A stretch of 37,063 nucleotides of DNA from Planctomycetota bacterium (GTDB lineage: Bacteria; Planctomycetota; Planctomycetia; Pirellulales; UBA1268): contig JAQCJP010000007.1 of the NCBI GenBank assembly GCA_027592945.1, forward strand, positions 1 through 37,063, read 5' to 3'. A model generated the notes under the pieces. The model saw nothing but the letters and a program-made list of their open reading frames with translations. It did no database searches and was not told the DNA's origin. Numbering within the stretch: position 1 is the stretch's first letter; each line of letters begins with the position of its first letter. Below, in pieces: positions 1 to 30,894 of the stretch. A program made the position numbers and the translations under genes.

Positions 1-311
1 TCGATGCCCGGCACCGCTTGGGCCGCGACCGCAGCCGGATCGACAGCCAGCGCGATCACGTTCGCCGCCAGCGACGGCAGCTCGCCGCCGGCCGGCGGCC
101 CCGCCGTGGCCAGCCCTGCGATCGCATACTCCGCCCGGATCGCATGGAGGGAGGCCGTCCGCTTGGCGTTGACGACACGGCCCTCCATGTCGATCAGTTG
201 CCAGCGGCGGTCGTGCTCGAGGGCCCCGCCGGGCAATAGGCCGGCCTGCATGACCGCGACCCCGTCGAGGCTCTTCACGGGATAGACGGTGATCCACTCG
301 AGCGTCGGCAT
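1..311 (-). CDS. MOSC N-terminal beta-barrel domain protein (partial, runs off left edge)
   Basis: Not in the ORF track because it has no stop inside the window. The reverse strand from ATG at 311 reads MPTLEWITVYPVKSLDGVAVMQAGLLPGGALEHDRRWQLIDMEGRVVNAKRTASLHAIRAEY..., matching the MOSC_N pattern (YPVKSL...DRRW.LID..G). It starts 17 bp after the upstream M50 gene ends. Confidence 0.72.
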   Translation of the reverse strand, partial: MPTLEWITVYPVKSLDGVAVMQAGLLPGGALEHDRRWQLIDMEGRVVNAKRTASLHAIRAEYAIAGLATAGPPAGGELPSLAANVIALAVDPAAVAAQAVPGI

Positions 312-328
312 GACGAGAAACCACCGGT

Positions 329-2560
329 CTACATCCGGAAGTTGAAGGTCTGCCAGAGGAGCCGCAGGAGCCACTGGCCGACCGTCCGGCTGCCAACCTT
401 GATCCGGGCCGTGCCCCGCATCCCGGGCGTGAACACGCCCTTGGCGTCGTCGATCGTCATCAGGGCCTCGTAGCTCGTCGAGATCGGCATCTCCCGGCCC
501 GCCTCGTCGGTCTTGGTCGGCACCGGACCGCCCGCCTTGACACTGAGCCGCTCCGAGCCGGCCTCGATCTCGCTCTCGGCGATCTGATCGATCTGGCCCG
601 AGAAGGTCTGCCAGGGAAAGGCGTCGAGCTTGAGGTCGACCGGCTGGCCGTGCTGCACGAACTCAACCTCCGTCTGGTCGATCACCATCACCACTTCAAA
701 CCGCTCCCGGTCGCCGATCATGCAGAGGACCGTGCCCGGGGTGAAGGTCGCGCCGAGATTCTCCGGATCGAGGGCATGGCCGGTCCAGCCTGGCAGCCGG
801 CCGGAGGGGTCGGGCCGCTCGGGCACGCCCGGGGCCGGCAGGACAACGCCCGCCCGCGGGGCGACGAGCGTCAGCTCCTGGCGATCCCGCCGCTTGCGGG
901 CCAGTTGCTCGCCGAGGCTCTTGAGCGTCTCGCTGACGGTGCCGATCTCGAGGGCTGCCGAGGGATCGCTGTACCGCTCCCGCTGGAGGCTCGCCAGCCG
1001 GCTCTCGGCATCCCGCCGGCGGCCCTCAAGCTCGGCGATTTCGAGGTCGAGTTCCAGGCTCGAAAGCTCGGCGAGCGTCTGGCCCTTGACCACTTCCTCG
1101 TCGGGCTCGACGAGCAGTTTCTCCAGCCGCCCGGCCTCCGAGACATACACCGTCTCCTCGCCGCGGGGCCGCAGCTCCGCCGCACACCAGACCCGCTGGG
1201 GCAGCGGGATCAGGGCGATCGCCGCGATCACCAGGCCGGCCACCAGAATCGTCGTGGTCAGATTCGTCGCCTTCACCTCGTCTCGCCTCCCGGGAACCTT
1301 CAGAAACTTGATCATCCCCTGCATCGGCCGGACCACCAAGCCCCAGATCGCCGCCCCGGCCAGGATCTGGCCGATCACCTGGAGGCGATACGGTTTGAAG
1401 ACGTTCCAGACGAACAGGAAGATCGAAAGCGTCACGAACCAGCCGTAGAGGCTCGAGGCGACGGCATAGAAGGCGAACCAGCCGAGTTTCCGCTGCGGCA
1501 GGAAGGGATCGTCGGGCTGCTTGATCCCGAGACACCACTTCGAGGCCAGCCGGCCGAGGATCGTGGTCGCCTTCTGGCGGAGATTCGGAATCTCGAGGAC
1601 GTCGGAGAGGATGTAGTAGCCGTCGTAGCGGAGCAGCGGATTGGCGTTGAAGAGGATTGTCGAGACGCTCGAGACGAACATCACGTCGAGGCAGAGCTGG
1701 TTGAAGACGCCCGGATGGGAGTTCCACCAGAGGTAGGTCGCGATCGCGGCCAGGACCACCTCGACGTACATCCCGGCCGCCCCGATCGCCGCCCGCTTCC
1801 ACTTGCTGGGCAGCATCCAGCTGTCGGAGACATCGCAATAGAGGCAGGGCGTGAAGACGAGAATCATCACCCCCATCTCATGGCACTCACCCCCGTAATA
1901 CTTGCAGGAGAGGCCGTGGCCGAACTCATGGATCACCTTGGTCACGCCCAGGGCGATGGCGAGGTAAAGCCAGTTGCCCGTGGCGAAGAACTGATGGAAC
2001 TCGGGCAGCTTCGAGCGGAAGACATCGAAGTTGATCAGCACCAACAGCAGGGCCGAGAGGGCGAAGCTCATCAAGACGGCGATCGCCGCCGGTGAGAAGA
2101 TCCAGCCGAGCCAGGGATTGAGCCGCTCGAGCATCCAGTCGGGATCGATGCCGCGAAACCGCAGGGCCATCACGTTCGAGATCCAGGCGACCCACTCCTT
2201 CCACTTCCGCTGCCGCCGCCGCTCGAAGAGCTGCGGCCCCTGCCCCGGCCGGTCGCCGATCACCAGCCCCGAGCGATGCAGCGTGCTGACGAACCGGGCC
2301 AGCTCCTCGACCGTGATCCGGCGAGGTGGAAACCGCTCCTCGAACTGCTCCTTGAGATCCTCGAGGCTCGTCTGGCCGTCGAGCATCTCGAGGAGGGCAT
2401 ACTCCTCCGGCCGAAACCGGAAGTAGTGCAGCGAGATCGGGTCTTTGACGACAAACCAGGCCTGCCCCTGGTAGACCTGACGGTTGACGTCGAGATCCCC
2501 CCGCTTCCGCAGGCCGACCGGCCGCGTCGTGCTGGAGCGAAAGGCCTCGGCGGTGGCCAT
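329..2560 (-). CDS. PqqD-like (RRE) / site-2-protease-type M50 peptidase / HlyD fusion membrane protein
   Basis: Start reassigned to MATAEAFRSS at 2560, a 4-bp ATGA overlap with the upstream gene. N-terminus is PqqD-like (FRFRPEEYALLEMLDGQTSLEDLKEQFEERF...LHRSGLVIGD). M50 motifs are HEFGH and NPLLRYDGYYILSD, with several TM segments. C-terminus is HlyD/biotinyl-lipoyl-like. Confidence 0.85.
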   Translation of the reverse strand: MATAEAFRSSTTRPVGLRKRGDLDVNRQVYQGQAWFVVKDPISLHYFRFRPEEYALLEMLDGQTSLEDLKEQFEERFPPRRITVEELARFVSTLHRSGLVIGDRPGQGPQLFERRRQRKWKEWVAWISNVMALRFRGIDPDWMLERLNPWLGWIFSPAAIAVLMSFALSALLLVLINFDVFRSKLPEFHQFFATGNWLYLAIALGVTKVIHEFGHGLSCKYYGGECHEMGVMILVFTPCLYCDVSDSWMLPSKWKRAAIGAAGMYVEVVLAAIATYLWWNSHPGVFNQLCLDVMFVSSVSTILFNANPLLRYDGYYILSDVLEIPNLRQKATTILGRLASKWCLGIKQPDDPFLPQRKLGWFAFYAVASSLYGWFVTLSIFLFVWNVFKPYRLQVIGQILAGAAIWGLVVRPMQGMIKFLKVPGRRDEVKATNLTTTILVAGLVIAAIALIPLPQRVWCAAELRPRGEETVYVSEAGRLEKLLVEPDEEVVKGQTLAELSSLELDLEIAELEGRRRDAESRLASLQRERYSDPSAALEIGTVSETLKSLGEQLARKRRDRQELTLVAPRAGVVLPAPGVPERPDPSGRLPGWTGHALDPENLGATFTPGTVLCMIGDRERFEVVMVIDQTEVEFVQHGQPVDLKLDAFPWQTFSGQIDQIAESEIEAGSERLSVKAGGPVPTKTDEAGREMPISTSYEALMTIDDAKGVFTPGMRGTARIKVGSRTVGQWLLRLLWQTFNFRM

Positions 2561-3522
2561 CAGCGGGCCTCTCCGACCGGCTCCCCTGCTTCGAGCGCCC
2601 CCCCGGCTTCGATGGGCTCCTTCTTGGTCGCCGGCGGCAGTGGGGCCTGGGCCGAGTGGATCGTCATCGTGACGAACTGGCCGGCCCGCAGGAGCCACTC
2701 GCCGTCGTCCTGACGATTCTCGACCTCCGCCACCACCCGGTAGTTGCCGCTCTCCATCCGCGGCTTGACGTTGAAAATCCGGCCGGCGAACGATGCCTCC
2801 CGGCCGCCTGCCAGCTGGGCTGCGACCGTCACCGGCCGATCGCGGACATCGCCCGGATCGAAGCGGGCGGCATCGACGTAGCCCTCCACGTAGAGCCGGT
2901 CGGTACGAATCAGCCGGGCCAGCGGGTCGCCCGGCTGGAGCCACTCGCCCTCGTGGGCGAAGACCTCTTCGACCTCGCCGGCGAGCGGCGAGCGAATCAC
3001 CCGCCGCTCGATCGCCTTGTCGGCCGCCTCGACCTCGACCCCCTTGCTCGTCGCGTCAAGCGCGGCCAACTGCCGCTCGAGTTCGGCCTGCTCGATTTGG
3101 AGGCCGGTCTTCTCCCATTCGAGCTTGAGCCGCTCCCGCTCGACCTCGGTGACCGAGCCCGGGCTGCGGGCGTGGGAGTCCTCCGCCTTGCGGTAGGTCA
3201 TCTCGGCCACGCCCTGGGCCTTCTTCGAGTAGCGAACGTCGACGTCGCTCTCGGCCCGGGCCAGGGTCTGATCGTGTTCCGCCTGGGCCCGCCGCTTCTC
3301 CATCTGCGGCTGGTCGTCATCGATCTTGGCGAGCACGTCGCCCTTCGCGACCACCGCCCCCTGCCGGATAACCAGCGTGACCACGACGCCCGGCTCGCGA
3401 GCCGGCACCTCGACCTCGTCGATCAGCGACACCAGGCAGCCCTCGATCACCGGCTCGGCCGGCTCTGCGGACACCGCCACGACACCCCAAATCAGACAGC
3501 AGAGAACAGCCAGCAGCGGCAT
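2560..3522 (-). CDS. Secreted HlyD-family periplasmic adaptor protein
   Basis: MPLLAVLCCLIWGVVAVSA signal-like start at 3522, then VIEGCLVSLIDEVEVPAREPGVVVTLVIRQGAVVAKGDVLAKIDDD (lipoyl-like hairpin), coiled coil and beta-barrel region. Confidence 0.85.
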   Translation of the reverse strand: MPLLAVLCCLIWGVVAVSAEPAEPVIEGCLVSLIDEVEVPAREPGVVVTLVIRQGAVVAKGDVLAKIDDDQPQMEKRRAQAEHDQTLARAESDVDVRYSKKAQGVAEMTYRKAEDSHARSPGSVTEVERERLKLEWEKTGLQIEQAELERQLAALDATSKGVEVEAADKAIERRVIRSPLAGEVEEVFAHEGEWLQPGDPLARLIRTDRLYVEGYVDAARFDPGDVRDRPVTVAAQLAGGREASFAGRIFNVKPRMESGNYRVVAEVENRQDDGEWLLRAGQFVTMTIHSAQAPLPPATKKEPIEAGGALEAGEPVGEAR

Positions 3523-3532
3523 CGCAAGGCTC

Positions 3533-5620
3533 CTACCAGAGACGGAACAGGATCTGGGTCTGAATGAATGACAGCAGGTCGTGAAACCAGACATAGCCGA
3601 GCGGCTGCTTGCCGCAGGCGATCCTCGCCGTCACGGTCGCTCCGGCACCGAGTTCCTCCTTCTCGTGGCGGTCGGGATCGATCGTGACCCGCACGAGCAC
3701 GGTGTTGCCCTCCTCGCCGCGAACCTCTGCCTGCTCGTGGATCTCCTCAACGACGCCGTGATGCCGGGTGCCGGGATCGGTGGCGAGGATGTAGTCGACC
3801 TCCAGGTCGCGGCCCTCCTCACGGGCCGCAACGGCCGCTCGGTTCACATGGCCGAGCCGGTCGTCTGGCATCTGCACTTCGAGCTCCCAGGGACCGGTCT
3901 TGTCGGCGACGCTCATCAAGACCTGCCCCTTCTCGACCGGCCGCAGCAGGAGCCTGTCGCGAACCTGCCAGGTGACGATCACGCCGTCGATCGGGCTCTT
4001 GACCTCGAGATCCTGCCGGCGGGCCTCCCAAAGCTTAAGCTGCTCCTCGAGGCTCTCGATTTCTCGCTCGAGCTGCGCCGCCCGGCCCGCAAGCCGGACC
4101 TTCTCATCCGCCGAGATCTTCTGATCTTCCAGGAGTGAGCGGCGGGTAGCCCGCAGCTGCTCCGTACTCGACGCCCGCCGGCCGAGCACATCGGCCAGGG
4201 CAACGTCCACCTCGGTGTTGCGGAGCCGGGCCAGCACCTGCCCTTCCTCCACCGCCACCCCGTGGCGAACGTCATCCGCAAGCCACTCGACGACGCCATC
4301 GATCCCCGCAAAGACCTCGCGGCGTTCGACCGGCTCGAGCGTGCCCTTCCCCTCGAGCCGCAACTCGGCCGGAATGAAGACCATCGCGAGAACTGCCGCC
4401 AGCAGCACGAGCCCGGCGAGCACCGTCTTGGGAAGGTTCCGGGCTGTGGTCAGTGCCTTCGACTTGCCGGCCAGGTTGATCAGCGGATAGAGCGGCAGGC
4501 CGGTGTGGTCGAGGGCGTTGGCCAGGGCCACCTTGCCATGCTCGGCGACCAGTTCAACGCGGGCCTTGCGGCCGGCGTCGACGATGCTGGCCTGAAACCA
4601 CTCCACGACGAGCGCCCCGATCGGATCGGGGGCGGTGGGCGGGGCCGCCTCGGCCTTCGCGACAGCGACCGCGTCGACGCCGCCCGGCTTGACGACGGGC
4701 GTCGACCGCGGCTTTTCCAGCGGAATGATCGCCAGAGCGGTGGCGTGCGACTCGTCGATATAGTTTTCGAGTTCCTCCTCGATCTGCGGCGGCAGCTCCC
4801 GGGAGGGGTCGGGATGCCAGAGCGGCTCCCCTGCCCGAGCCACCACCCGGACGAGCGCCTCCACCGCCTGGACGTCGTTGGCCCGCCGCTCGACGCTCTC
4901 CTGACCGCTGACCGCCTCGAGCCGCAGCTGCCGGCGGCGGCGGACGAGCACCCCGACCCGGTCGCAGCCGATGATCCGGCGGCCCTCGTTGGCCAACACG
5001 AAGGCCGTCGCCACCGGGTCGAGCGACTCGTGTACCGCGCGGGCAAATCGCTCCACCTGGGCCAGGGCCGATTGCTGGGTCGAGAGGGCCGTCATCTGCT
5101 GCCGCTGCAGATAGTCACCCGCCACCACCGCCAGTTGCTGCAGGAAGACGAGATACCCCCGCTCCACCTGCTCGTCCTGGGGCCTTTGGAAGACCTCGAT
5201 CAACCCCGCCCGATTGCCCTCCCGCTCGATCGGCACGGCAATCAGGGAGAGGGCCGTCGTGTTGGCCGCCAGCGGCTTGCCGTCACCCCCGCTCACCTGC
5301 GAGCCCGGCGGCACGACCACGCCTGTCGGACTCCCGAGCAGGGCCTGAACAAGTTTCAGGTGGTCCTGCTCGGCCTGCGGCGAGCCGGTGACTCCCGTTT
5401 CAGCCAACCCGGCATGACAGACCGGCTCGGCCGCCTGCCCCTCGCGGGCGACCCAGACGAGCCCCCCGACCGCCTCCATCGCCCGTAGGATCCGGTCGAG
5501 GAGGGCGGAGAAGAACTCCGCCTCGGCCATCTCACCCCGCGAGAGCGCATCGACCTCCGCCACGAGCGCACGAATCTGCTCGCGGGCCCTGTAGACCTCC
5601 TGGGATTCGTCGATACTCAT
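3533..5620 (-). CDS. GAF-domain / HlyD fusion membrane protein
   Basis: 695 aa. Two GAF-like regions in the N-terminal half (e.g. LANEGRRIIGCDRVGVLVRRRRQLRLEAVSGQ), one TM (VLAGLVLLAAVLAMVFI), then an HlyD module (REVFAGIDGVVEWLADDVRHGVAVEEGQVLARLRN ... VKSPIDGVIVTW). Confidence 0.85.
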   Translation of the reverse strand: MSIDESQEVYRAREQIRALVAEVDALSRGEMAEAEFFSALLDRILRAMEAVGGLVWVAREGQAAEPVCHAGLAETGVTGSPQAEQDHLKLVQALLGSPTGVVVPPGSQVSGGDGKPLAANTTALSLIAVPIEREGNRAGLIEVFQRPQDEQVERGYLVFLQQLAVVAGDYLQRQQMTALSTQQSALAQVERFARAVHESLDPVATAFVLANEGRRIIGCDRVGVLVRRRRQLRLEAVSGQESVERRANDVQAVEALVRVVARAGEPLWHPDPSRELPPQIEEELENYIDESHATALAIIPLEKPRSTPVVKPGGVDAVAVAKAEAAPPTAPDPIGALVVEWFQASIVDAGRKARVELVAEHGKVALANALDHTGLPLYPLINLAGKSKALTTARNLPKTVLAGLVLLAAVLAMVFIPAELRLEGKGTLEPVERREVFAGIDGVVEWLADDVRHGVAVEEGQVLARLRNTEVDVALADVLGRRASSTEQLRATRRSLLEDQKISADEKVRLAGRAAQLEREIESLEEQLKLWEARRQDLEVKSPIDGVIVTWQVRDRLLLRPVEKGQVLMSVADKTGPWELEVQMPDDRLGHVNRAAVAAREEGRDLEVDYILATDPGTRHHGVVEEIHEQAEVRGEEGNTVLVRVTIDPDRHEKEELGAGATVTARIACGKQPLGYVWFHDLLSFIQTQILFRLW

Positions 5621-5646
5621 GGCGGACCGGCTGGATGACGGCGGAA

Positions 5647-5976
5647 TCAGGCCTTCGCCGGGGGAGCCTGCTGGGGCTTGACCCGCTTCTGGACGTCGGT
5701 CTCAAGCGTGCCGAAGGCCTGCTCGTGACGAGCCACCGCATGGCCCAACGCGTAGGCAAGCCGCTTGGCGGTGAAGAAGTTGACGATGATCCGCTGCGTC
5801 AACTGGATCGTCTCCGGCGAGTTGCCGCCCACCTGCTTGTTGAGGCCGAAGTCGACGATCAGTTCCTCAGGCGTCCCGGTGACCCGGCAGAAGTTGGCGT
5901 AGGTAGCGGCGATGTGCGACTCATCGACGGGCACCTGGACGGGTTCAGGACGGGGGGACTGCTGCTCTTCGGCCAT
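5647..5976 (-). CDS. DUF3467-like protein
   Basis: Start reassigned to MAEEQQSPRPEPVQVPVDESHIAATYANFCRVTGTPEELIVDFGL...RIIVNFFTAKRLAYALGHAVARHEQAFG, matching the DUF3467 pattern. GGAG-like SD upstream of the ATG. Confidence 0.8.
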   Translation of the reverse strand: MAEEQQSPRPEPVQVPVDESHIAATYANFCRVTGTPEELIVDFGLNKQVGGNSPETIQLTQRIIVNFFTAKRLAYALGHAVARHEQAFGTLETDVQKRVKPQQAPPAKA

Positions 5977-6076: not shown

Positions 6077-7027
6077 TCAGCGGGGGCCAACGCTGGGCGA
6101 GGCCCGCCCGCCCTCGTCATCGCCCGGCTGCCCGAGGGCGGTCGCCAGCCGCATACCGCCCTGCCGCTCCAGCCACTCTGATGACACAAATCGCCGGAAA
6201 ATCGATCGGCATGAGCGTACGGCATCCCGTTCCCAGCCCCACCCGGCATCGTGCGGAAGGATCTCTACACCGGCAAACGAAAGCCGGCATGGCCAGCCTT
6301 TGGAGGAGGCGATGGTGTTGAACCGTTCAGTGATTCGCAGGGTCCAGGCAGCTCCCAAAGTCTCGCGGAGCGCCAGAAACGGCCGCTCGATCGCTGCGGC
6401 CACGCCGCCGGCTTGATCGGCCGCTGCCGCTGGTCGCCAGAGCGATTGTCCGACCGCCAGAACCGCCCCGCAGGCGACCGCCAAGCCACCGACGGCATCG
6501 AGCCAAGCGGCCGGGGCGGTCGCATCGGCAAAGCCCCGCACCACTGGCCAGATCAACGCCAACTGGCCACCGGCCACCAGCGTCGCCGCGAGGCCGTGCC
6601 GCGTCGCGACGAAGTTCAGCCAGCCGACCACGACCAGCACGACGAGCAGGACACGCTCGATCATGTGCACATCAGGCATGCTGCCGGGCCGCACCAGGAC
6701 AGCCGAAACTGCCGGCAGCATCAGCACGCCTGCCAGCGTGGCGACGATGAACTGCCAGACCCCGTGCTGCGGCCGCTTGGCTCCCAAGAGCGAGGCGGCC
6801 GGGCAGACTGCCAGGGCAGCGACGATGAGTCGCGTGGCCGCTGCGGCGGAGGGCTCAGTGAGCCAGCCGACCGCCAACGCGGCAGACTCACCAGCCAGAG
6901 CCGCAGCCGCCACAACCGCCCAGGCGGCCGCCGGCACGGCTGTTGTGCCGCGGGCGAGAAAGCAGCCCGCGGCCGCGGCGAGGGCGGTGACAATCGCGGC
7001 AGCGAGCATGAGGGCGGGTGGGGGCAT
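6077..7027 (-). CDS. Hypothetical polytopic membrane protein
   Basis: Start chosen at MPPPALMLAAAIVTALAAAAGCFLARG. Multiple Ala/Val/Leu-rich TM segments and a soluble C-terminal tail. Confidence 0.6.
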   Translation of the reverse strand: MPPPALMLAAAIVTALAAAAGCFLARGTTAVPAAAWAVVAAAALAGESAALAVGWLTEPSAAAATRLIVAALAVCPAASLLGAKRPQHGVWQFIVATLAGVLMLPAVSAVLVRPGSMPDVHMIERVLLVVLVVVGWLNFVATRHGLAATLVAGGQLALIWPVVRGFADATAPAAWLDAVGGLAVACGAVLAVGQSLWRPAAAADQAGGVAAAIERPFLALRETLGAAWTLRITERFNTIASSKGWPCRLSFAGVEILPHDAGWGWERDAVRSCRSIFRRFVSSEWLERQGGMRLATALGQPGDDEGGRASPSVGPR

Positions 7028-7029
7028 CG

Positions 7030-7170
7030 TGGATACTGTAGTTGGCGAACGGGGGTTTGGTGGTAGTGGAAGCGGATTGGGCGTGTCGGTGGTGAGCGAG
7101 TGATGGCAATCAGGTGTTGAGCGGCCCAACGGCCCGCCGTCCCCCCGGCTCGCGCCGAGGGGCTTCTCTG
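7030..7170. repeat. Intergenic repeat copy A with GC-rich hairpin
   Basis: gcggattgggcgtgtcggtggtgagc (about 7072-7097) plus gtccccccggctcgcgccgaggggcttctct (about 7139-7169), both shared with copy B at 20180-20325. Confidence 0.75.
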
Positions 7171-7291
7171 GGTTGGGTTGTGGCGATGATGGCGGTTGCG
7201 AAGGATGGCGGCGGCTGGCTGCCGAAGCGACCAGTGAAAGGCCGATGCCTCCATTGCACTCTCCCTTCCGGCCCCCCTTCCAGAAATCACC

Positions 7292-7723
7292 ATGTCGTTC
7301 TTCGTTCAGCCGCTGGCCCGGCGGCTCGCCTCGCTGGCGGTTGTCACCGTCACCGTCGCGGCCGCCGACTGCCCCGCGATCGAGATGTTCACCTTCTTCG
7401 GCGACGGCGGCCGGATCGGTCTGCCGAGCCTCGAAGTGCCGATTGAGGCCTACCCCGGCATCCCACTGCGGAGCGACCGGCTGCGGGCCCGCCGACGGGC
7501 GATGCGGATGGGACCCGGGGCAGCGGTCAGGATCGGGCCGCCGGGCTATGCCCGCGGGATCACCATCCGGGCAATGCCGCCGGCAGGCCAGCCGGCGACG
7601 ATGCCGGCGGAGCGGGTCGTTCCGTCGCCGGAACCGACCGCCGCCCCCGAACCGCCCGCCCTCGACGATCTCGGCCCGGCGCGGGATTCGATTGAGGAGG
7701 TGCCCGCCCCGCCGGCGGAGTAA
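7292..7723 (+). CDS. Small secreted hypothetical protein
   Basis: 143 aa with signal-peptide-like N-terminus (MSFFVQPLARRLASLAVVTVTVAAADC) and Pro-rich C-terminus; GGCCCCCCTTCCAG upstream region. Confidence 0.55.
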   Translation: MSFFVQPLARRLASLAVVTVTVAAADCPAIEMFTFFGDGGRIGLPSLEVPIEAYPGIPLRSDRLRARRRAMRMGPGAAVRIGPPGYARGITIRAMPPAGQPATMPAERVVPSPEPTAAPEPPALDDLGPARDSIEEVPAPPAE

Positions 7724-7771
7724 ACCGCGGCGGGACGGACGAACCTTGTACGAAACGCCGCCAGCTGACGC

Positions 7772-9142
7772 CTACTCGTCGCCCTTCAGCGAGGAGAGCA
7801 GGTCCATGGCATCCGGCCGGGTGGCGAAGACAGCCTCGTTGGTCAAGACCTCTTCAAGGATCTTCTGAGCCCGGTCCTTCTCGCCCCGATCAGTCAGCAG
7901 TTTGGCCACGTAGTAGGCCCCGTCGCTGGTCAGCCGGTTGTTGCGGGCGATCTGGTCGAGAATCTTCTCGGCATCTTCCCGCCGGCCGAGCTTGTAGTAA
8001 ACCCAGGCCAGGGTCGTCAGGGCATTGACCTGCTGGGGAGACTTCTCCCGGTACATCGCCACGTTGGCCTCGGCCATCTCCAAGGCCCGCTGCTGGTCGG
8101 TCTTCTCCTCCGACTCGATCAGCACCAGGGCCAGCGAGTTGCTGGCGGCAAAGTTGCCCGGCGACTGAACGTGCGCCTCGTTGAAGAACTTCTCTGCCGT
8201 CTCGTAGTCGCGGGCCACCCGGGCAATCACGCCGCGGACGATGCGGGCGTCGAGGCTGTCGGGTTCGAGCGTGAGCACCTTTTCGGTGATCGTCTGGGCG
8301 TTCTTGAGATCGTTCTGCCCCAGATACCACTGGGCCGAGGCCAGCAAGACCGCCGCGTTGTCGGGTGCCGCCTTCATCGCCGCGTCGATCCACTTCTTGG
8401 CGGTATCCTTCTTGCGATCTTCGTCGTAGAGCCGGGCGAGGGCCAGTTCCGGCTGCAGGGCGTTTTCGTCGAGCTTGCGGGCCTCGCGGAACTCCGCGAT
8501 CGCCTCATCCTGCTTGTCGAGGCGGAAGAGGACGTTTCCCAGCCGGAAGTGGGCACCGGCGTTGTCGGGATCGAGTTCGATCCAGGCCTTGAGATGCTTG
8601 TAGGCCCTCTCCCACTCCCGCCGGGCCTCGGCGACGGCTGCCGTGCCGGCCTCGGAACGAATCTGGAAATCACGCTTCCGCTTGGGATTCTGGTCGAAGC
8701 CGGCCGTCAGCTCGTTGGCCCGGTCGAAGAGCACCGCCGAGTCGGTGACGCGGCGATCCTGAAAGGCGAGGTCGGCGAGCATCAGGTAGGGCTCGGGATC
8801 GGCCGGAAACTTGACGACCGTCTGCTCGAGTTCGGCCCGGGCCGGCATCAGCTGGTTCACGCTCAGCCAGAGCATCGCCATCATCACGCCCGGCGGCGGC
8901 AGCTTCTCGTTGTTGTTGCGGGCCCGCTCCAGGATCGCCCGGCAGCCGTCGATGTCGCGATCTTGAAACCGCTTGATCGCGTTGTTGATGTCCTTGTATT
9001 GCGAGTCGTCGGAGACCGCCTTGCCGATCAGTGTCTTGGCGGTCACCTGGGCCCGGGCAAACTCACCCCGGGCGAGGACGGCGATGGCGGCGAGAACGAG
9101 AATCAAGCGGCCGGCACAACGAACCAGCGGACGTGAGAGCAT
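7772..9142 (-). CDS. Secreted tetratricopeptide-repeat protein
   Basis: 456 aa, signal-like N-terminus, repeated TPR signatures (AHFRLGNVLFRLDKQDEAIAEFREARKLDENALQ; LTTLAWVYYKLGRREDAEKILDQIARNN). Confidence 0.85.
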   Translation of the reverse strand: MLSRPLVRCAGRLILVLAAIAVLARGEFARAQVTAKTLIGKAVSDDSQYKDINNAIKRFQDRDIDGCRAILERARNNNEKLPPPGVMMAMLWLSVNQLMPARAELEQTVVKFPADPEPYLMLADLAFQDRRVTDSAVLFDRANELTAGFDQNPKRKRDFQIRSEAGTAAVAEARREWERAYKHLKAWIELDPDNAGAHFRLGNVLFRLDKQDEAIAEFREARKLDENALQPELALARLYDEDRKKDTAKKWIDAAMKAAPDNAAVLLASAQWYLGQNDLKNAQTITEKVLTLEPDSLDARIVRGVIARVARDYETAEKFFNEAHVQSPGNFAASNSLALVLIESEEKTDQQRALEMAEANVAMYREKSPQQVNALTTLAWVYYKLGRREDAEKILDQIARNNRLTSDGAYYVAKLLTDRGEKDRAQKILEEVLTNEAVFATRPDAMDLLSSLKGDE

Positions 9143-9271
9143 GGCGAGAAAACTCCAGCGAGACTGTGAGAAGCAAAATGCGATGAGACCGAATCCCTGT
9201 GCGACCCGGAATCTATTACTCTAACGCTGCTGGAAGCGGGTTTCCACCGTTGGCGAAAAAGGGCCGTCGGC

Positions 9272-10930
9272 ATGCTCCTCGGTGCGGTTTGCGAGCGGGA
9301 GATGATGGTTGCGCCGCGAACCCGCGGCCTCTATCTGGCCCGCGGCCTGGCAGCCGCCACCCTGCTGGCGATCATCGCCACCTGCTGGCTGGTCGTGACC
9401 GGATCCCAGAGCCTCACGACCCTCGGCGACACAGCCCGATTCGCCGCCACGCTGCTGCGAATCATGGCGCCGCTGCAGCTCTCGTTGGCGGTGCTCGTCG
9501 CCGCGCTGGTGGCCGTCCTCGCCGTTGGCGTCGAGAAGGACCGGCGGACCCTCGAACTCCTGCTTGTCAGCCGGCTGGGCGACCCGCAGCTGGTGTTAGG
9601 CAAACTCGCCGGCAGCCTCCTGCGGGTGGGGCTGCTGCTGGTGGCCGCTGCGCCGCTCTTTGCCCTGGCCTCGCTCTTTGGCGGCGTCACGCCGCCGCAG
9701 CTCAGCCGACTGTTTCTGGTGACGGCTGCCGCAGCGGTGGCGGCGGCCAGCCTCGGCAACGCGGCGGCCTTTTGGCGCGACACCACTTTTCAGGCCTTGG
9801 CCATGACTGCCTCCGCTCTGGTCGCCTGGCTCGCCTGCGGCGAGGCGGCGGCGATCGTTGGGGGAGCCCGCTGGGGTGATATCGTCTCGCCGGCCCGGGC
9901 CGCCCTGGCCTCGCTGACGCCCGGTGGCGATCGATCATTGACAGGCTTCCTGGCTGTCTCCGCCGGAATCGCGGTGATCACCAGCGGAATCGCCGTCGCT
10001 CGGGTGCGACGGTGGAATACCGCAACGGAACGCCGTCAGGAGCCTGTGGCAACCGCGGGCCGGCGGCAAGCGCGACAGGTCTGGGCCAATCCCGTGCTCT
10101 GGCGAGAGATCCGCACCAGGGCGCACGGTCGGGCGATGGTTGTGGTGCGGATCGCCTGGCTGGCCATCTTTCTCGTGGCCGTGGCGGGCGTGGCGGTCGC
10201 CGCCGATGCGGAGCGTCCCGATCGCTTTGCCGTCGCCGCCGCCGTGGTGCCGATGGTGCTGGCGAGCCTTCTGGCGATCGCGGCCCTGGCCGTGACAAGC
10301 GTGACGGCCGAACGCGATCGCGGCACGCTCGATCTGCTGCTGGTCAGCGATCTGGAGCCCAGGGAGTTCGTCTGGGGCAAGCTGCTGGGCGTGATTGCCG
10401 CTGCCAGGGAAATGGCCCTGCTGCCGCTGGTGGTCTGCGGGGCGCTCGTGCCGCTGGGAATGGCGACCGGTGAGCAGGCATTTTATATGGTCGCTGGCCT
10501 CGCGCTCTTGACCTTCTTCGCAGCCGTGCTGGGCGTTTATGCCGGGCTGTCGCACCCGATCTCGCGACAGGCGATCGCCGTGACCCTCGGCATCGTGGCC
10601 TTCCTCTCGATCGGGGTCGCCACGGCGATGCGAATCATGGTCGCCTTCGGCGGGAGCTTCGAGTTGCAACTGGCGCCCTTTCTGGCCGCGATCGTGGGAG
10701 GAGGCGTGGGCCTCTATGCGGCCCTCTCCACCCGCAACCCGTCGCCGGCGGTCGCCTGGACCTCGGCCTTGCTGCCGGCGCTGACCTTCGTGGCCATCAC
10801 CGGCTTTCTGCAGGGCAGCAGCCTGCAGGTCTTCCTGGTCACGCTCGCGGCCTACGGCTTCGCCACCCTGGCCCTCTTGATTCCCTCGATCGCCGCCTTC
10901 GACCTGCTCACCGGCCGCAGCAGCGAATGA
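9272..10930 (+). CDS. ABC-2 type transporter permease, two homologous halves
   Basis: 552 aa polytopic. Two copies of the ABC-2 motif: VEKDRRTLELLLVSRLGDPQLVLGKL and TAERDRGTLDLLLVSDLEPREFVWGKL. Confidence 0.82.
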   Translation: MLLGAVCEREMMVAPRTRGLYLARGLAAATLLAIIATCWLVVTGSQSLTTLGDTARFAATLLRIMAPLQLSLAVLVAALVAVLAVGVEKDRRTLELLLVSRLGDPQLVLGKLAGSLLRVGLLLVAAAPLFALASLFGGVTPPQLSRLFLVTAAAAVAAASLGNAAAFWRDTTFQALAMTASALVAWLACGEAAAIVGGARWGDIVSPARAALASLTPGGDRSLTGFLAVSAGIAVITSGIAVARVRRWNTATERRQEPVATAGRRQARQVWANPVLWREIRTRAHGRAMVVVRIAWLAIFLVAVAGVAVAADAERPDRFAVAAAVVPMVLASLLAIAALAVTSVTAERDRGTLDLLLVSDLEPREFVWGKLLGVIAAAREMALLPLVVCGALVPLGMATGEQAFYMVAGLALLTFFAAVLGVYAGLSHPISRQAIAVTLGIVAFLSIGVATAMRIMVAFGGSFELQLAPFLAAIVGGGVGLYAALSTRNPSPAVAWTSALLPALTFVAITGFLQGSSLQVFLVTLAAYGFATLALLIPSIAAFDLLTGRSSE

Positions 10931-12589: not shown

Positions 12590-13801
12590 ATGCCGCAGTC
12601 GTCACCCGCCAGCCAACCTCCGCCCGCGATGACCGCACCGGCCTCTTCCCCCGCGACCACTGCCGGCAAGCCCCCCGGGGCTGAAGGCTTCCACGCCTAC
12701 CCGTGGTGGAGCCCCCGCTTCTGGCACGGGATGCCGCTGGGGGTCTGGCTGCGACTGGTCGCCGAACACCGGGCCCGGTTTTCACCATCCCGGCTCGGCC
12801 TGGTCGCCACGATCTCGACGGCCGCCGCCTCCAACTCACTGGCCGAGCCGCTCAGCGAGGCCCGTTACCGCCGCAAGCTCAACCAGGCCCCGGCCACGCC
12901 GCCGCCGCTGTTCATCCTCGGCCACTGGCGGAGCGGGACAACCCTGCTCCACGAACTGCTGATGCTCGACGAGCGCTTCTGCTGCCCATCCACCTACCAA
13001 TGCTTCGCGCCGGGGCATTTCCTGCTGACCGAGGCGATCCTGACCCGGATGCTTGCCTGGATGATGCCCTCCAAGCGGCCGATGGACAACGTGGCGGCCG
13101 GCTGGTCGCGTCCCCAGGAAGACGAGTTCGCCCTGGCCAACATGGGTGCCCCCTCGCCCTATCGCCGGATGGCCTTTCCGCTCACCAGCCCGGCCGAGCC
13201 GGTCGCCCTCGATATCAGCAAGTTGTCTGCCGCCGACCAGGCCCGCTGGCAGGAAACCCTGCGGCAGTTCCTGACAAGACTCGCCGTCCGAGACAGCCGG
13301 CGTCCGGTGCTCAAGAGCCCGCCCCACACGGCCCGGCTCGGTATCCTCGCGCGGATGTTTCCCGAAGGTCGCTTCCTGCACGTGGTGCGGGATCCGTTCG
13401 TCGTCTTCCCGTCGACCGTTCGGCTCTGGCGATCGCTCGACCACGTGCAGGGGCTGCAGGCAGGCCCGGCCGCCGATCTCGAGGAGTATGTGTTCGCCTG
13501 CTTCGAAGAGATGTATGCAGCCTTCGAGCGGGATCGGCGAGAACTGCCGGACAACCGCCTCCACGAGGTTCGCTATGAAGATCTGGTGGCCGATCCGGTC
13601 GCCTGCCTGGCCGAGGCCTACGAGCGGCTCGAACTCGACGACTTCGCCAAAGTCAGGCCGGCCCTCGAGTCGCACGTCGCGGCGATGAAGCAATATCGGA
13701 CCAACACCTACCACCACGATGCCCAGGTCGTCGCGGAGATCACCCGCCGCTGGCGGCCCTTCATCGACCGCTATGGCTACGAGGTGCCCGAGGCCGACTG
13801 A
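12590..13801 (+). CDS. Sulfotransferase family protein
   Basis: 403 aa with PAPS-binding 5'-PSB-like motif PPPLFILGHWRSGTTLLHELL and 3'-PB-like FLHVVRDPFVVFPSTVRLWRSL. Confidence 0.88.
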   Translation: MPQSSPASQPPPAMTAPASSPATTAGKPPGAEGFHAYPWWSPRFWHGMPLGVWLRLVAEHRARFSPSRLGLVATISTAAASNSLAEPLSEARYRRKLNQAPATPPPLFILGHWRSGTTLLHELLMLDERFCCPSTYQCFAPGHFLLTEAILTRMLAWMMPSKRPMDNVAAGWSRPQEDEFALANMGAPSPYRRMAFPLTSPAEPVALDISKLSAADQARWQETLRQFLTRLAVRDSRRPVLKSPPHTARLGILARMFPEGRFLHVVRDPFVVFPSTVRLWRSLDHVQGLQAGPAADLEEYVFACFEEMYAAFERDRRELPDNRLHEVRYEDLVADPVACLAEAYERLELDDFAKVRPALESHVAAMKQYRTNTYHHDAQVVAEITRRWRPFIDRYGYEVPEAD

Positions 13802-14532
13802 GCCCGCCCCGCCGGCTGCCGCTGCCGCTGGAGCAGCTTCACCCGCGGATCGGCTTGGAGCTCCTTCTGCTCCTCGGCAAGTTCGGTCGGCGTCATCCGG
13901 ATGCTCCGCTCAAAGCGGCGGCGAGCCAGCAGCCATTGGCCGAACGCCAACGCCGCGGCCGTGAAGGCCAGGCCAGCCATCGCCCGCCAGGCGACGACCG
14001 CCACGCCCCCGACGTCGCCAGGCTCCGCAGCCCGCTGCTGGAGCACTGCCAGCGGACGGGCCGCCACGAAGCCCGTCGCCACGATCATCGCAAGCCCCGC
14101 CGCTGCCGTCAGCAGCGTGGCAAGCGTGCCACGTGAAAAGATGCGGCCCAGCCCGGCCAGCGGGTTGATCCGCTGCGGATCGAACCTCATCCGCCCGGGC
14201 TGCCAAGAAAGACCGTCGCAGGCAAAGCGGACTGCCAGACCGGCCACCGCCGACGCAGTCAGCAGGCCGACGGTAGGCATCAGGAGGGCCGCCGCGAAGG
14301 CCCAGGAAAAGCCCACGCCCCGGTTGACGGCCACGGCGGCGGTGACCGCTTCACCGATCGCATCGCGGGCCGCGGGAATCGTGTGGCGAGCCCAGGCCGG
14401 CAAGAGCAGGATGGCGACCCCGGCCGATGCCGCCCAGGCTGGCAGGTCGGCCGGAGCCCCGAGCCCCTGGCGGCGAGCCTGTTCACGCCGCCGGGGTGTG
14501 GCCGGGATCGTGCGGTCGTGGGTGTCGGCCAT
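13777..14532 (-). CDS. flhB: Flagellar export protein FlhB, C-terminally truncated
   Basis: Start reassigned to MADTHDRTIPATPRRREQARRQGLGAPADLP. FlhB-like (KI..EAR..G.v..S.eL; F.PqriNPlaGLgRIFS; ERSIRMTPTELAEEQKELQADPRVK). No NPTH motif before the stop. Confidence 0.83.
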   Translation of the reverse strand: MADTHDRTIPATPRRREQARRQGLGAPADLPAWAASAGVAILLLPAWARHTIPAARDAIGEAVTAAVAVNRGVGFSWAFAAALLMPTVGLLTASAVAGLAVRFACDGLSWQPGRMRFDPQRINPLAGLGRIFSRGTLATLLTAAAGLAMIVATGFVAARPLAVLQQRAAEPGDVGGVAVVAWRAMAGLAFTAAALAFGQWLLARRRFERSIRMTPTELAEEQKELQADPRVKLLQRQRQPAGRAQSASGTS

Positions 14533-14546
14533 TGTGATCTCCCGGC

Positions 14547-15320
14547 TCAGGGTCCAACGCCGAAACAACGCTCGAGGAGCGGTCCCGCGGCGGCCGCAAA
14601 GCCTTCTGTCCAGACGCCCGCTCCGGCATAGACCGCAGCCAATATCACCAGTGACGCCGCTGCCTGCAGCAGGCCCGCTCCCGGTGTAAAGCGAACCGTC
14701 CGCAGGCAGATCGCGGCGGCGACGTGGAAGGTGAGCACGGCCGCAACAGCCGGAGCCGCCAACGATGCGGCCAGGGCCAGGGCAAGGCCGGGCACCGCGG
14801 CCGCCTGCTCGACCAGCGCGTCAATCGATCCGCCAGCGGCCAGGCCGCCCACCGGCATGTCCGCCACGCTGTCGATGAGCCCGGCGATGATCGCCAGGTG
14901 ACCGCCGGCAGCGAGAAAGCCGGCGACTGCCATCCAGGTGGCCAGCCGAGCCGCCGCGCCCTCGCCGGCCGCGGCGTCCGGCGTGAAGTCGTCGGCCCAG
15001 GAGAGGCCCGAGATCATCCCGAGGATCTGGCCGGCCCAGGCTGCCGCGGCAAACACGATCGCCGCGGCCAGGCCCATGCCGAGGCCGACGACAGCCTCGC
15101 CGGCCAGCAGCACGAGGAGGGGCGGCCGCGGTGCCGCCGCTGCCGCCGCGGGCAACGCCACCGCCGCCAGCGCAATGACAGCCACCGCCCGCAGTCGCAG
15201 GTCGAGCCGCGGAAAGACTGGCAGTCCGCCGACGGCCACCGCCGCGGCCATCCTCGCGATCACACCGAGGGCGATCGCCGGGTCGGCGGCGAGGATTCCA
15301 GGAAGCGAATCGGCCGGCAT
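14547..15320 (-). CDS. fliR: Flagellar export protein FliR
   Basis: 257 aa with FliR-like polytopic pattern (LLAGEAVVGLGMGLAAAIVFAAAAWAGQILGMISGLSWADDFTPDA) and gene order between fliQ and flhB. Confidence 0.83.
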   Translation of the reverse strand: MPADSLPGILAADPAIALGVIARMAAAVAVGGLPVFPRLDLRLRAVAVIALAAVALPAAAAAAPRPPLLVLLAGEAVVGLGMGLAAAIVFAAAAWAGQILGMISGLSWADDFTPDAAAGEGAAARLATWMAVAGFLAAGGHLAIIAGLIDSVADMPVGGLAAGGSIDALVEQAAAVPGLALALAASLAAPAVAAVLTFHVAAAICLRTVRFTPGAGLLQAAASLVILAAVYAGAGVWTEGFAAAAGPLLERCFGVGP

Positions 15321-15324
15321 CGGT

Positions 15325-15576
15325 TCAGGGCCCCGCGGCGAGACGGAAGAGTTCGGCCAGCCGGTCGACCATCCAAGGAAGCGTCCAGAGCACCGCCAGG
15401 CCCATGACCAGCAGCCGGGGCACCAGCCCGATGATCGGCTCCTGCACCCCGGTGGCGGCCTGCACCAGCCCGGTGACCAGGCCGACTCCCAGCCCGGCCA
15501 ACAGCACGGGCGTCAGCAGGATCCCGCCGGCCAGCACCGCCTCGCGAACGAGTTCAACCAGATCGGTTCCGGTCAT
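15325..15576 (-). CDS. fliQ: Flagellar export protein FliQ
   Basis: 83 aa, two TM; LVREAVLAGGILLTPVLLAGLGVGLVTGLVQAATGVQEPIIGLVPRLLVM is the FliQ pattern. Confidence 0.88.
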   Translation of the reverse strand: MTGTDLVELVREAVLAGGILLTPVLLAGLGVGLVTGLVQAATGVQEPIIGLVPRLLVMGLAVLWTLPWMVDRLAELFRLAAGP

Positions 15577-15590
15577 TGATCCTGCCGTTG

Positions 15591-16550
15591 TCAGGAGGCG
15601 ACGAATCCGTCGAGCAGCCCTTGGACGACGAGCGTCCAGCCGTCGGCGGCGACGAAGACGAGGAGTTTGAGGGGCAGGGAGACCATCGTCGGCGGTAGCA
15701 TCACCAGCCCGGTCGAGACGACGAGCGCGGCCACCAGAATGTCGATCACGAGAAAGGGCAGCAGCAGCCGAAAGCCGATGGCGAACGCCGTCTCCAGTTC
15801 ACTGACGAGGAAGGCGGGCAGCAACGCCTCCAGCGGCACATCGTCGTAGGTGGTCGCCTGGCGGGGGCCATTGGGATGGCGGGCCAGGAAGAGCAGCATC
15901 GTGTCACGGTTGCCCGCCTCCTCGATCTGGGCGGCCATCCAGCGACGGATCGGCAGCGAGCCTCGCTCGAAGGCCGTGGCGGCGGCGATTTCCCCGTCCT
16001 GATACGGCCGGACGCCCTCGTTCCAGGCCCGCGTCCAGACCGGCCACATCACCAGGGCCGAGAGGAAGATGGCCAGCGAGGCGACGACTTGGTTGGAGGG
16101 AATCTGCGGAGCTCCGATCCCCTGGCGGAGGAGCCCCAGCACGACCGACATCCGGACGAAGCAGGTCGTCATCAGCAGCACCGCCGGAGCCAGCGTGATG
16201 ACGCCGAAGAGCACCGCCGAGGGCAGCAGGGCAGCCAGCGAGCGGCCGCTGACGAACTGCCGCAGATCAAAGGGAACAGCTGGAGCCATCGCGGGGCCTG
16301 TCCCGTCGGCCGGAATCGCCGCGGACTCGACGGCCGGCAGGAGATCGTCATCCGGAGCTCGGGCCGCCTTGGGATCGAGGCCTGTCGCTTCGACCGGTGG
16401 TGGCGAAGCGGGAACGGAGGCGAACTCGGCGATCGGCACGGTGGCCGGCGTGTTGGCTGCCGCTTCTGCCGCGACGATCTGGCCGGCCCAGGCGGTGAAG
16501 AGCACCGCAGCGAGCCAGCCCACGGCGATTCGGGGGCCGCGGCCGATCAT
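15591..16550 (-). CDS. fliP: Flagellar export protein FliP
   Basis: 319 aa: TCFVRMSVVLGLLRQGIGAPQIPSNQVVASLAIFLSALVMWPVW ... LPAFLVSELETAFAIGFRLLLPFLVIDILVAALVVSTGLVMLPPTMVSLPLKLLVFV is diagnostic for FliP. Confidence 0.95.
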   Translation of the reverse strand: MIGRGPRIAVGWLAAVLFTAWAGQIVAAEAAANTPATVPIAEFASVPASPPPVEATGLDPKAARAPDDDLLPAVESAAIPADGTGPAMAPAVPFDLRQFVSGRSLAALLPSAVLFGVITLAPAVLLMTTCFVRMSVVLGLLRQGIGAPQIPSNQVVASLAIFLSALVMWPVWTRAWNEGVRPYQDGEIAAATAFERGSLPIRRWMAAQIEEAGNRDTMLLFLARHPNGPRQATTYDDVPLEALLPAFLVSELETAFAIGFRLLLPFLVIDILVAALVVSTGLVMLPPTMVSLPLKLLVFVAADGWTLVVQGLLDGFVAS

Positions 16551-17215
16551 GCTGCCTCCCCGCCGGCCGGCTCCGGGCGAACAGTGGAGACGGGCCGGGG
16601 TCGGGGCGGCGTCGTGCCGTTCGGCACGCCGCGAGCAGACCGGCCGGCGGTGCAGGCCGCGACGATCCGCTCGGTGGCCCCTGGATCAGTGAGTTCGGCG
16701 AGCGTCTGACTGCCGGCCGACGAGACGGCAACCAGGAGGGTTCGTGGGCCGAACCGGACCACTCGCACGGCGTGCTGGCCGCCGAGCGAGCCCTCCCCGA
16801 GCACATCGAAGACATCCGGCGGCAGTGATCGGGCGGCTCGCAAGGGCTTGAGGCGAAAGGCCGCCAACACGAGAAATGCCGCGGCGATGGCCAGCAGGAA
16901 TGTCCAGTTGCCTGCCTGCGGCACGACCGATGCAGCAGGCTTCTTCGAGTCAGTCGTGGTATCCGGAGCCGCCAGCGGCAGCGGGTGGTCGATCCGGCTG
17001 GTGGCGGCCTCAAAGGCGGCCGGTCGCACCTCGCCCTCAGCCCCTTCGCGTTCCATCGATACGCCATCGGCGAGCGGCGGCAGCGGTGCGACCGGGTCGT
17101 CGGCGAGCAAGGTTCCCGCCGCCAGCAAAAGCCCGGTCGTCAGCAGCAGCACGCGCCGCCCGGCCATCGGCCCACGGCCGGGTTGCCGCCGCGATTTCGC
17201 GGTTCGGTTCGTCAT
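16547..17215 (-). CDS. fliO: FliO-like flagellar biosynthesis protein
   Basis: Signal/TM plus small cytoplasmic domain (LGEGSLGGQHAVRVVRFGPRTLLVAVSSAGSQTLAEL) immediately upstream of fliP with ATGA overlap. Confidence 0.72.
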   Translation of the reverse strand: MTNRTAKSRRQPGRGPMAGRRVLLLTTGLLLAAGTLLADDPVAPLPPLADGVSMEREGAEGEVRPAAFEAATSRIDHPLPLAAPDTTTDSKKPAASVVPQAGNWTFLLAIAAAFLVLAAFRLKPLRAARSLPPDVFDVLGEGSLGGQHAVRVVRFGPRTLLVAVSSAGSQTLAELTDPGATERIVAACTAGRSARGVPNGTTPPRPRPVSTVRPEPAGGEAA

Positions 17216-18726
17216 GCGGCCACCTTCGCAGCGTGACCGGGGGCCGATGCTTCCGGGGCATGTCTCCGGCTCGTCCCGTCGATGCCCGACCAGTCGATCG
17301 GCTCGGCGGACGACTCGCGCTGAAGACCGCGGCGGCGGCGGCTAGTCGGCGGCCGCAGCACGAGCCAGCCGAGGATGCCGGCGGCCAACGCGATCACACC
17401 CAGCCAGACCTCGCGGGGGACCGCCTCGGGGTTGCCGGCGAGGAGCGACTGCCAGGCCGCCTCGAGTGAGACGGCTTCCGCCGATGTTCGCGATTCGGTT
17501 CCGTTGCCGGCGGCGGGAGCCTCAACTCGCTCGGTCACCTGCCGGGATCGGATGGCCGCGGTCGGAGCCGGTGAGGCGACGGGATAGGAGGTCAGCGCTA
17601 CCTGCCGGCCATCGGCCCGGGTGGTGGGCGGCAGCAGGGCGAGGACATGCTCGCGGAGTTTGGACTCGGTAAGCCCAGCCCGCGGACCGTTTGGATCTGC
17701 CGAGCCGCCAAGCCAGGTCTCGGGCACGGCGAGCGAGACGAGGATCGTCGTCGGACTGCTGGGGTCGGCACGTTCCAAGCGGACAGGCCGGGGTGGGGAG
17801 GGCGGCCCGTCGTCGCCGACTTCAGCCGGGGCATTGGCGTCGGCAACCCGTTGCGTGGCAGCGGACGGCTCGGGGGCCGGCAGGCGGGGTGGCACCGCCG
17901 GCCCGAAGGTCACGGTCACGTCAACGACCGCCCCGTCGATGAACGCCAGACCGCGACGGAGCTTGTCGGCAAGATGACGCTCGTGGGCGACACGTCGGGC
18001 AAGGGCAGGATCGGTCGCGGCAAGCCCGGCTTCGGCCTCCTGCGGCGAAGGCAGCGGCCCGACAAAGACCCGCCCGCTCCGCAGATCGGTGACGGCGACC
18101 TGCTCGGCGGAGAGACCGGCGATCGAGGCCGCCACCAGCACCCGAATCGCCTCGACTCGGGAGGCCTCCAGTTCGGTGTCGGGCTGGGTCCGGACGTTGA
18201 CGCTCGCCGTCGGCTCCCGCCCGGCTGTCAGGCCGCCTCCCGAGCGGCGGTCGTCACCGTCGTAGAGCACCGCAGCTCGCTCAATGCCCGGCATCGAACA
18301 GATGACGTGCGCCAGTTCCTCCTGAATGGCGACCCGGAGCATCTCTTCCTGGACCGCCCTGCTCTGCCAGGGGCTGTTCTGCTCGAGGGCCCGCCGCAGG
18401 CTGCTGCCAAACTCTCTCGGCAGTGCTTCGGCGTCAACCAAGGCCCGCATGTAGGCGCTCTGCCGGGTGCGGGGCACCCAGACCCGGCCCCCTTCGGTGC
18501 GATGGTCGATCAGCTGGGCCCGGTCAAAGGCCGCCTCGACGATGGCGAGTTCCGAGGAGGGCAGGACCGTGCCGGGGAGCAGTTCCACCTCCTCGCTGAT
18601 GGGTCGATCCCGCAGCAGCCAGGCGGCCCAGGCGAAGGACGCCATGACCAGGCCGATGCCCACCACCTGGGCGGGTGTGATCCGACGGGGAGATCCGCGG
18701 GGCGAGTCGTCGGCGTGAACCTGCAT
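17212..18726 (-). CDS. fliF: FliF-like flagellar MS-ring protein
   Basis: Two TMs flanking a periplasmic region; TASVNVRTQPDTELEASRVEAIRVLVAASIAGLSAEQVAVTDLRSGRVFVG matches the YscJ/FliF core. Start uncertain: ATG at 18726, or TTG at 18786 overlapping the upstream stop. Confidence 0.8.
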   Translation of the reverse strand: MQVHADDSPRGSPRRITPAQVVGIGLVMASFAWAAWLLRDRPISEEVELLPGTVLPSSELAIVEAAFDRAQLIDHRTEGGRVWVPRTRQSAYMRALVDAEALPREFGSSLRRALEQNSPWQSRAVQEEMLRVAIQEELAHVICSMPGIERAAVLYDGDDRRSGGGLTAGREPTASVNVRTQPDTELEASRVEAIRVLVAASIAGLSAEQVAVTDLRSGRVFVGPLPSPQEAEAGLAATDPALARRVAHERHLADKLRRGLAFIDGAVVDVTVTFGPAVPPRLPAPEPSAATQRVADANAPAEVGDDGPPSPPRPVRLERADPSSPTTILVSLAVPETWLGGSADPNGPRAGLTESKLREHVLALLPPTTRADGRQVALTSYPVASPAPTAAIRSRQVTERVEAPAAGNGTESRTSAEAVSLEAAWQSLLAGNPEAVPREVWLGVIALAAGILGWLVLRPPTSRRRRGLQRESSAEPIDWSGIDGTSRRHAPEASAPGHAAKVAA

Positions 18727-18782
18727 GAAAGCTGCCGGCCTGACGGCCGACTCATGTGGTGGGAGGGCGAAGAACCGGAACC

Positions 18783-22803: not shown

Positions 22804-22807
<4 letters not shown>

Positions 22808-25323: not shown

Positions 25324-25375
25324 GACCGGATTATAGGCGACGTATTCGAAGTGGCACGGGCCCACCCCGAGCCGG

Positions 25376-30888: not shown

Positions 30889-30894
30889 TAAACT

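Follow-up and report, generated by a model that had tools for sequence, protein, structure and literature searches.

The closest described system is a locus reported by Kamneva, Poudel and Ward in 2015 (PMC4452313), which holds genes for Peptidase_M50+HlyD, HlyD/biotin-lipoyl and GAF+HlyD proteins and for a SecA_DEAD protein without SecA_SW, sometimes together with OEP. SecA was proposed there as the ATPase and M50 as the pore, and the biological role was called completely unknown; the terms PqqD, DUF3467, giant and LEPR are absent from the main text of that paper. A separate line of work concerns the N-terminal motif RRLxxExLExRxLLA (Studholme 2004, as cited in PMC8567305), which is considered a novel export signal (PMC8567305). 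In Tuwongella, the motif is found on 52 genes, including eight of the ten longest proteins, and 8 of the 20 motif proteins that were detected occurred exclusively in the SDS-soluble fraction S3 (PMC8567305).

In the literature found, subscription papers and preprints lying outside the search, no link is drawn between the motif and the locus, and no exporter is named for the motif. Here we describe a planctomycete cassette that, judging from sequence, is likely to be the inner-membrane and periplasmic part of a type I secretion system (T1SS)-like machine without an ABC transporter, exporting large and giant leader-bearing surface proteins. The locus itself has been known since 2015; its likely substrates are what is new here.

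Gene organization of the cassette

The window, that is, the whole stretch of DNA analysed (37,063 nucleotides), is an entire 37-kb contig of a draft planctomycete genome, with the cassette at its left end. The DUF3467, GAF-HlyD, secreted HlyD and RRE-M50-HlyD genes form one minus-strand cassette (329-5976), in which neighbouring genes overlap or are separated by gaps of 10-30 bp. The features are as follows.

5647-5976, minus strand: DUF3467 protein, first gene of the cassette; 109 aa from the ATG at 5976; PF11950, E=1e-19.
3533-5620, minus strand: GAF-HlyD protein; GAF region in the cytosol, a single membrane helix and HlyD in the periplasm; HlyD_3 above cut-off, GAF_2 weak.
2560-3522, minus strand: HlyD-type adaptor, secreted to the periplasm; the reading frame stays open to 3594, and a signal peptide with a hydrophobic core starts from the Met at 3522; NCBIfam RND_mfp above its cut-off.
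329-2560, minus strand: RRE-M50-HlyD protein; 743 aa from the ATG at 2560; NCBIfam daptide_HExxH-like over residues 29-422, Pfam M50 and HlyD; AlphaFold2 full model with pLDDT 81.8.
2255-2512, minus strand: predicted RRE/PqqD-like N-terminal domain of the RRE-M50-HlyD protein, residues about 19-104; AlphaFold2 with Foldseek, and profile against PDB sequences.
1916-1930, minus strand: M50 zinc motif HEFGH; invariant in both homologue alignments, HExxH in 89/91 homologues.
1616-1642, minus strand: M50 second motif NPLLRYDGY; Asp and Gly invariant in the proteobacterial alignment, strict motif in 85/91 homologues.
407-1204, minus strand: adaptor domain of HlyD/MacA type, part of the M50 protein and located in the periplasm; Pfam HlyD_D23 and HlyD_3; Foldseek MacA, MexA and ZneB, E about 1e-13 to 1e-12.
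3-311, minus strand: MOSC N-terminal fragment; first 103 residues, cut by the contig end; PF03476, E=7e-14; neighbour only in close relatives.

These four genes had been recognised in a sequence-only reading, and Pfam and NCBIfam bear them out, including its several HlyD adaptors, which Pfam resolves into three HlyD modules across the cassette. That reading had counted MOSC as a fifth member of the unit, a part that did not stand: the MOSC gene is an edge-cut neighbour and probably not part of the machine. We judge MOSC and the upstream genes at 6077-10930 to be neighbours in close relatives only. The opposite strand carries an ABC-2 permease at 9272-10930, outside the cassette unit, and no ABC, RND or MFS pump is encoded within the unit. 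The GAF domain is sub-threshold by Pfam in the window protein and strong in the alphaproteobacterial homologues. DUF3467 is also present in two alphaproteobacterial loci (L166, L171), and it lies behind M50 in Blastopirellula (L130).

Elsewhere in the window, ORF reading shows consecutive minus-strand flagellar-export-like genes at 13777-19277 (FlhB, FliR, FliQ, FliP, FliO-like and FliF/YscJ-like) and a respiratory cluster at 22804-37063 with cytochrome c oxidase subunits, haem A/O synthesis, an SCO-like protein and large c-type cytochrome proteins. A sulfotransferase family protein (PF13469, E=7e-32) is encoded at 12590-13801, between TPR and flagellar genes.

Domains of the RRE-M50-HlyD protein

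The Pfam PqqD model matches the N-terminus of the M50 protein below its cut-off (E=0.03). Residues 1-123 were modelled by AlphaFold2 with a pLDDT of 86.5, from an alignment of planctomycete loci only, and the best Foldseek matches are TbiB1 and TfuB1 (with leader peptide), TigE, CteB and PqqD (best E 2e-3, probability 1.00). The model consists of a three-stranded sheet and three helices, as in PqqD and TbiB1. A profile of this segment against PDB sequences placed TfuB1 and PqqD at the top, with weak E values. The sequence-only reading had proposed an RRE here and named the fold as the check; the N-terminal domain is indeed predicted to have the RRE/PqqD fold and may bind a leader.

Pfam Peptidase_M50 scores 30.2 bits, above its cut-off. 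In the model, the HExxH and distal Asp motifs sit in membrane helices, and both are intact and conserved, in agreement with the earlier assignment as an M50 protease; HEFGH is invariant across the proteobacterial set. By analogy, the Asp of NPLLRYDGY would be the third zinc ligand. The NCBIfam model of the daptide intramembrane metalloprotease (NF041824) matches residues 29-422 with E=2e-59 and 201.5 bits, below its cut-off of 300. In a Foldseek search with the full model, HlyD/MacA matches dominate and are uninformative on the M50 part.

Conservation across Planctomycetota

The GAF-HlyD, HlyD and M50-HlyD trio is syntenic across the order, in nearly all intact neighbourhoods examined in relatives. 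The M50-HlyD gene was found in 58/59 sampled genomes of the class and in 28/119 sampled genomes of the phylum, and one genome (G035) carries as many as four cassette copies. Since the trio is syntenic and M50-HlyD is present in 58 of the 59 class genomes, the cassette is not a product of chance. The cassette belongs to the core of the class, which sets it apart from a biosynthetic cluster specific to one strain. An artefact of one metagenome-assembled genome was rejected.

A second SecA and TolC-like proteins encoded elsewhere in the genome

The window contains no SecA gene, which is linked to the cassette in Blastopirellula and others. The window's own genome encodes a canonical SecA (contig C276) and a 643-aa SecA-like protein (contig C159) with 54% identity to the cassette-linked one of Blastopirellula. 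In the 643-aa protein, the GEGKT, DEAD-type and TNMAGRGTD motifs are retained, as is the preprotein-binding domain, and the sequence stops where the wing and scaffold begin; Pfam accordingly reports DEAD, PP_bind and P-loop and no SW. TolC-like proteins are encoded on four contigs of this genome, and TolC-like genes stand next to some paralogous cassettes (L058, L063). The sequence-only reading had noted neither a pump nor TolC nearby. For ABC, RND and MFS pumps in the unit this holds, but at other places the genome does encode TolC-like proteins and a SecA-like ATPase. The "missing pump" is probably the wing-less second SecA, located here on another contig. Because large LExR proteins, often a SecA-like ATPase of ~650 aa and, at several of the loci, a TolC-like gene recur, we consider that both a motor and an outer-membrane channel probably exist, encoded elsewhere in this genome.

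Large leader-bearing proteins beside proteobacterial plasmid loci

A tblastn search against plasmid records revealed homologues at 24-34% identity in Azospirillum, Niveispirillum, Methylosinus, roseobacters, Variovorax, Kosakonia and rare E. coli plasmids; among complete E. coli genomes, 24 of 5,426 carry the M50-HlyD gene. The same search with GAF-HlyD gave no match, although homologues exist there. Twelve proteobacterial plasmid loci were examined, and in ten of them M50-HlyD adjoins a gene for a large or giant protein of about 2,350 (Kosakonia) to 16,200 aa (Variovorax). All ten large neighbours have an N-terminal basic stretch followed by [L/M]ExR-x-[L/M][L/F], which is the LEPR-XLL/Planc_extracel motif (for example, LEPRMMFDAA, LEPRFLLSAD, LEARYMFDAA, LESRQLFDGA and MEPRVLLSAD), and for three of them LEPR-XLL is the public annotation's own name. 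In most of the ten loci, what follows the large-protein gene is either TolC with two HlyD genes or GAF-HlyD (in some with DUF3467) and a SecA-like ATPase of ~650 aa. In the roseobacter locus M382, all that lies between the large gene and the adaptors is a few short genes and the point where the circular record starts. The two remaining loci showed no leader: Phyllobacterium has a different neighbour, and the Magnetospirillum ORF is apparently truncated. No linked SecA was found in the E. coli plasmid, Kosakonia, Azospirillum, Variovorax and Niveispirillum loci, and the motor is therefore unproven there.

Several further observations concern these records. The annotated starts of two giant proteins (L200/L201, NZ_CP123586.1; L168/L179, NZ_CP039644.1) lie downstream of the leader, which is contained in the in-frame upstream sequence. 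Public records label the short SecA-like ATPase as a DEAD/DEAH box helicase or a prepilin peptidase (L166, 17192-19108; L171, 14121-16106). A SapC-family gene recurs next to the roseobacter versions (L169, L183, L201), and in the SecA-less subtype (Variovorax, Niveispirillum, Kosakonia) the leader of the giant proteins is directly followed by DUF4347. The E. coli plasmid NZ_CP081687.1 (L170) and its relatives carry a unit of M50-HlyD, HlyD, HlyD, TolC and an Ig-like giant protein, with no linked SecA in the one locus examined. The M50-HlyD gene also occurs on Citrobacter and Hafnia plasmids.

The leader motif in Planctomycetota

In Pirellulales, many large proteins next to the cassette bear the motif, here a basic stretch followed by LExRxLL. 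Among cassette-locus proteins of at least 1000 aa, some of them from orthologous loci, 15 of 44 have the motif in their first 150 aa, compared with 0.35 expected from shuffling and none in an internal window. Members of the family to which the window belongs (L036, L039, L076) encode a leader-bearing giant beyond MOSC, which for the window corresponds to a position just past the contig end. Next to the single core cassette of many Pirellulales, a leader gene is not present. The window's own genome encodes several leader-motif proteins on other contigs. A search of this genome with NF012209 gave chance matches only; the planctomycete variant of the motif was found by PF07595 and by a leader model built here. 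PF07595 was discarded as a co-occurrence marker, being too weak. The leaders are cationic, and a hydrophobic core is missing from 19 of 21: their maximal mean hydropathy stays below 0.9, whereas the secreted HlyD has a Sec signal that reaches 2.9. They are thus unlike ordinary Sec signals.

The leader model has 28 columns and was built from 33 leaders, to which the window's own genome was the sole contributor among 119 Planctomycetota genomes. At E ≤0.01 and an ORF length of at least 300 aa, leader matches were found in 19/28 cassette-positive and 2/91 cassette-negative genomes (n=119; Fisher 2.5e-13), or 13/18 and 2/64 by family (1.8e-9), and the short SecA was found in 16/28 and 1/91 of the same 119 genomes (1.7e-11); these p-values are indicative, as the cut-offs were set after the tables had been seen and relatedness was only partly handled. 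The two leader-positive genomes without a cassette stand beside nine of the 28 cassette-positive genomes without a leader match at this cut-off, where the genomes are drafts and the short model is weak. Among the matches listed, a leader gene lies within 5 kb of M50 in 12 of 86 class loci, compared with 0.49 expected; four of these adjacencies come from loci used in the leader model, and the other eight represent two arrangements, apparently orthologous, in one family. The co-occurrence of leader and cassette could also arise from the shared ancestry of lineages rich in surface proteins.

Proposed export machine

Taken at the level of sequence, the data suggest that this machine exports, and probably trims, very large N-terminally tagged surface proteins. 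Its substrates would be large and giant surface proteins that start with a basic stretch and [L/M]ExR-x-[L/M/V][L/F/M] in place of a Sec signal peptide. In the cytosol, the leader may be bound by the M50 protein's RRE, the fold of which is seen in the model. The wing-less SecA-like ATPase (C159), which has the ATPase motifs, may then drive the unfolded chain, a motor role like that proposed by Kamneva in 2015. The chain would pass through an inner-membrane conduit made by or around the M50 and GAF-HlyD proteins, and then through the HlyD assembly and a TolC-type channel, all of them parts encoded at these loci or in these genomes. The M50 active site, with its conserved motifs, would remove the leader. 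The GAF domain and DUF3467 might conceivably serve regulation. The sequence-only reading had envisaged capture, cleavage and export with M50 as a possible conduit; an N-terminal leader scheme fits this view, which was partly proposed in 2015 (PMC4452313), but the cargo appears to be giant proteins, not small peptides.

Four other explanations were weighed against this machine. One of them keeps the export of leader proteins and makes M50 a conduit only, with a zinc site unused on the substrate. The polytopic M50 part is fused to HlyD and a pore role was proposed for it in PMC4452313, but HExxH is retained in 89 of 91 homologues and invariant in the proteobacterial set, and we regard this version as unlikely. 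The GAF domain and the intact site-2 protease motifs would also suit signalling, in which GAF senses a ligand, M50 cuts an anti-sigma factor or regulator bound to the membrane, the HlyD parts have a structural role and the leader proteins leave by another route. No conserved sigma or anti-sigma partner was seen, however, and the linkage seen in two phyla, to TolC, to the SecA-like ATPase and to large secreted proteins, makes signalling quite improbable.

A maturation route of the RiPP type, in which RRE and M50 process and export a small daptide- or epipeptide-like leader peptide via the HlyD adaptors, draws on the RRE fold and on the similarity to the daptide protease (E=2e-59). That similarity, however, is 100 bits short of the family cut-off, and the cassette is present in nearly all class genomes, like a core function. 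The sequence-only reading had favoured a small RiPP or lipopeptide substrate; no precursor peptide gene, recurrent small ORF or modifying enzyme was recognised among the neighbours examined by ORF reading, and the recurrent partners are instead large LExR-leader proteins. We therefore consider the RiPP route very improbable. The adaptors score best against RND/MacA adaptor models, as they would in an operon for the efflux of small molecules or metals into which an M50 gene had strayed. Yet the units contain no RND, MFS or ABC pump, and multidrug efflux was rejected; most cassettes examined have no dedicated pump nearby, and homologues consistently beside an ABC or RND pump, the outcome that the sequence-only reading had set against itself, were not seen in the neighbourhoods examined. 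With leader proteins, a SecA-like ATPase and TolC as partners, an efflux operon is extremely improbable.

A bolder form of the proposed export machine, which we advance tentatively and with more doubt than belief, is a distinct secretion system in which the wing-less SecA drives giant LExR-leader proteins, with neither SecYEG nor an ABC transporter, through an intramembrane-protease gate joined to HlyD and TolC. RRE would read the leader and M50 would open and clip, giving a dedicated exporter for giant surface proteins of Planctomycetia and many proteobacteria. If true, two orphans would be joined: an export-like signal on planctomycete surface proteins, known since 2004 and with no machine given for it in the papers found, and a secretion-like locus known since 2015 without a substrate. 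One deletion strain would then test the exit route of proteins that rank among the largest in bacteria (up to about 16,200 aa here), and translocation that combines a SecA-like motor with an intramembrane protease would be open to study in everyday laboratory strains such as Methylobacterium extorquens AM1.

Comparison with known systems

The SecA_DEAD/T1SS-related module of Kamneva 2015 has the same M50+HlyD, HlyD and GAF+HlyD proteins, which stand side by side in the window; its secondary SecA_DEAD without SecA_SW is present in the window's own genome but unlinked to the window cassette. LEPR-XLL (NF012209)/Planc_extracel (PF07595) is shared by proteins of this genome and the proteobacterial neighbours, and is a signal, not a machine. 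The daptide HExxH protease (NF041824) and the YydH/LiaK epipeptide protease (NF058609) align with the N-terminal region and M50 core over 394 residues. However, these models (379 and 246 positions) have no HlyD part, the cassette protein scores far below cut-off, and no RiPP genes were recognised nearby.

Accessory SecA2 systems likewise have a second SecA gene besides the canonical one; the SecA considered here lacks the wing and scaffold, and no linked second SecY was noted in the loci examined. Type I secretion (HlyB-HlyD-TolC) and C39-peptidase ABC exporters are characterised by HlyD adaptors, a TolC channel and leader removal at the inner membrane, all of which the proposed machine would share by analogy. 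In it, a SecA-like ATPase would take the place of the ABC transporter and M50 that of C39, and the signal would be an LExR leader at the N-terminus, not a C-terminal or double-glycine one.
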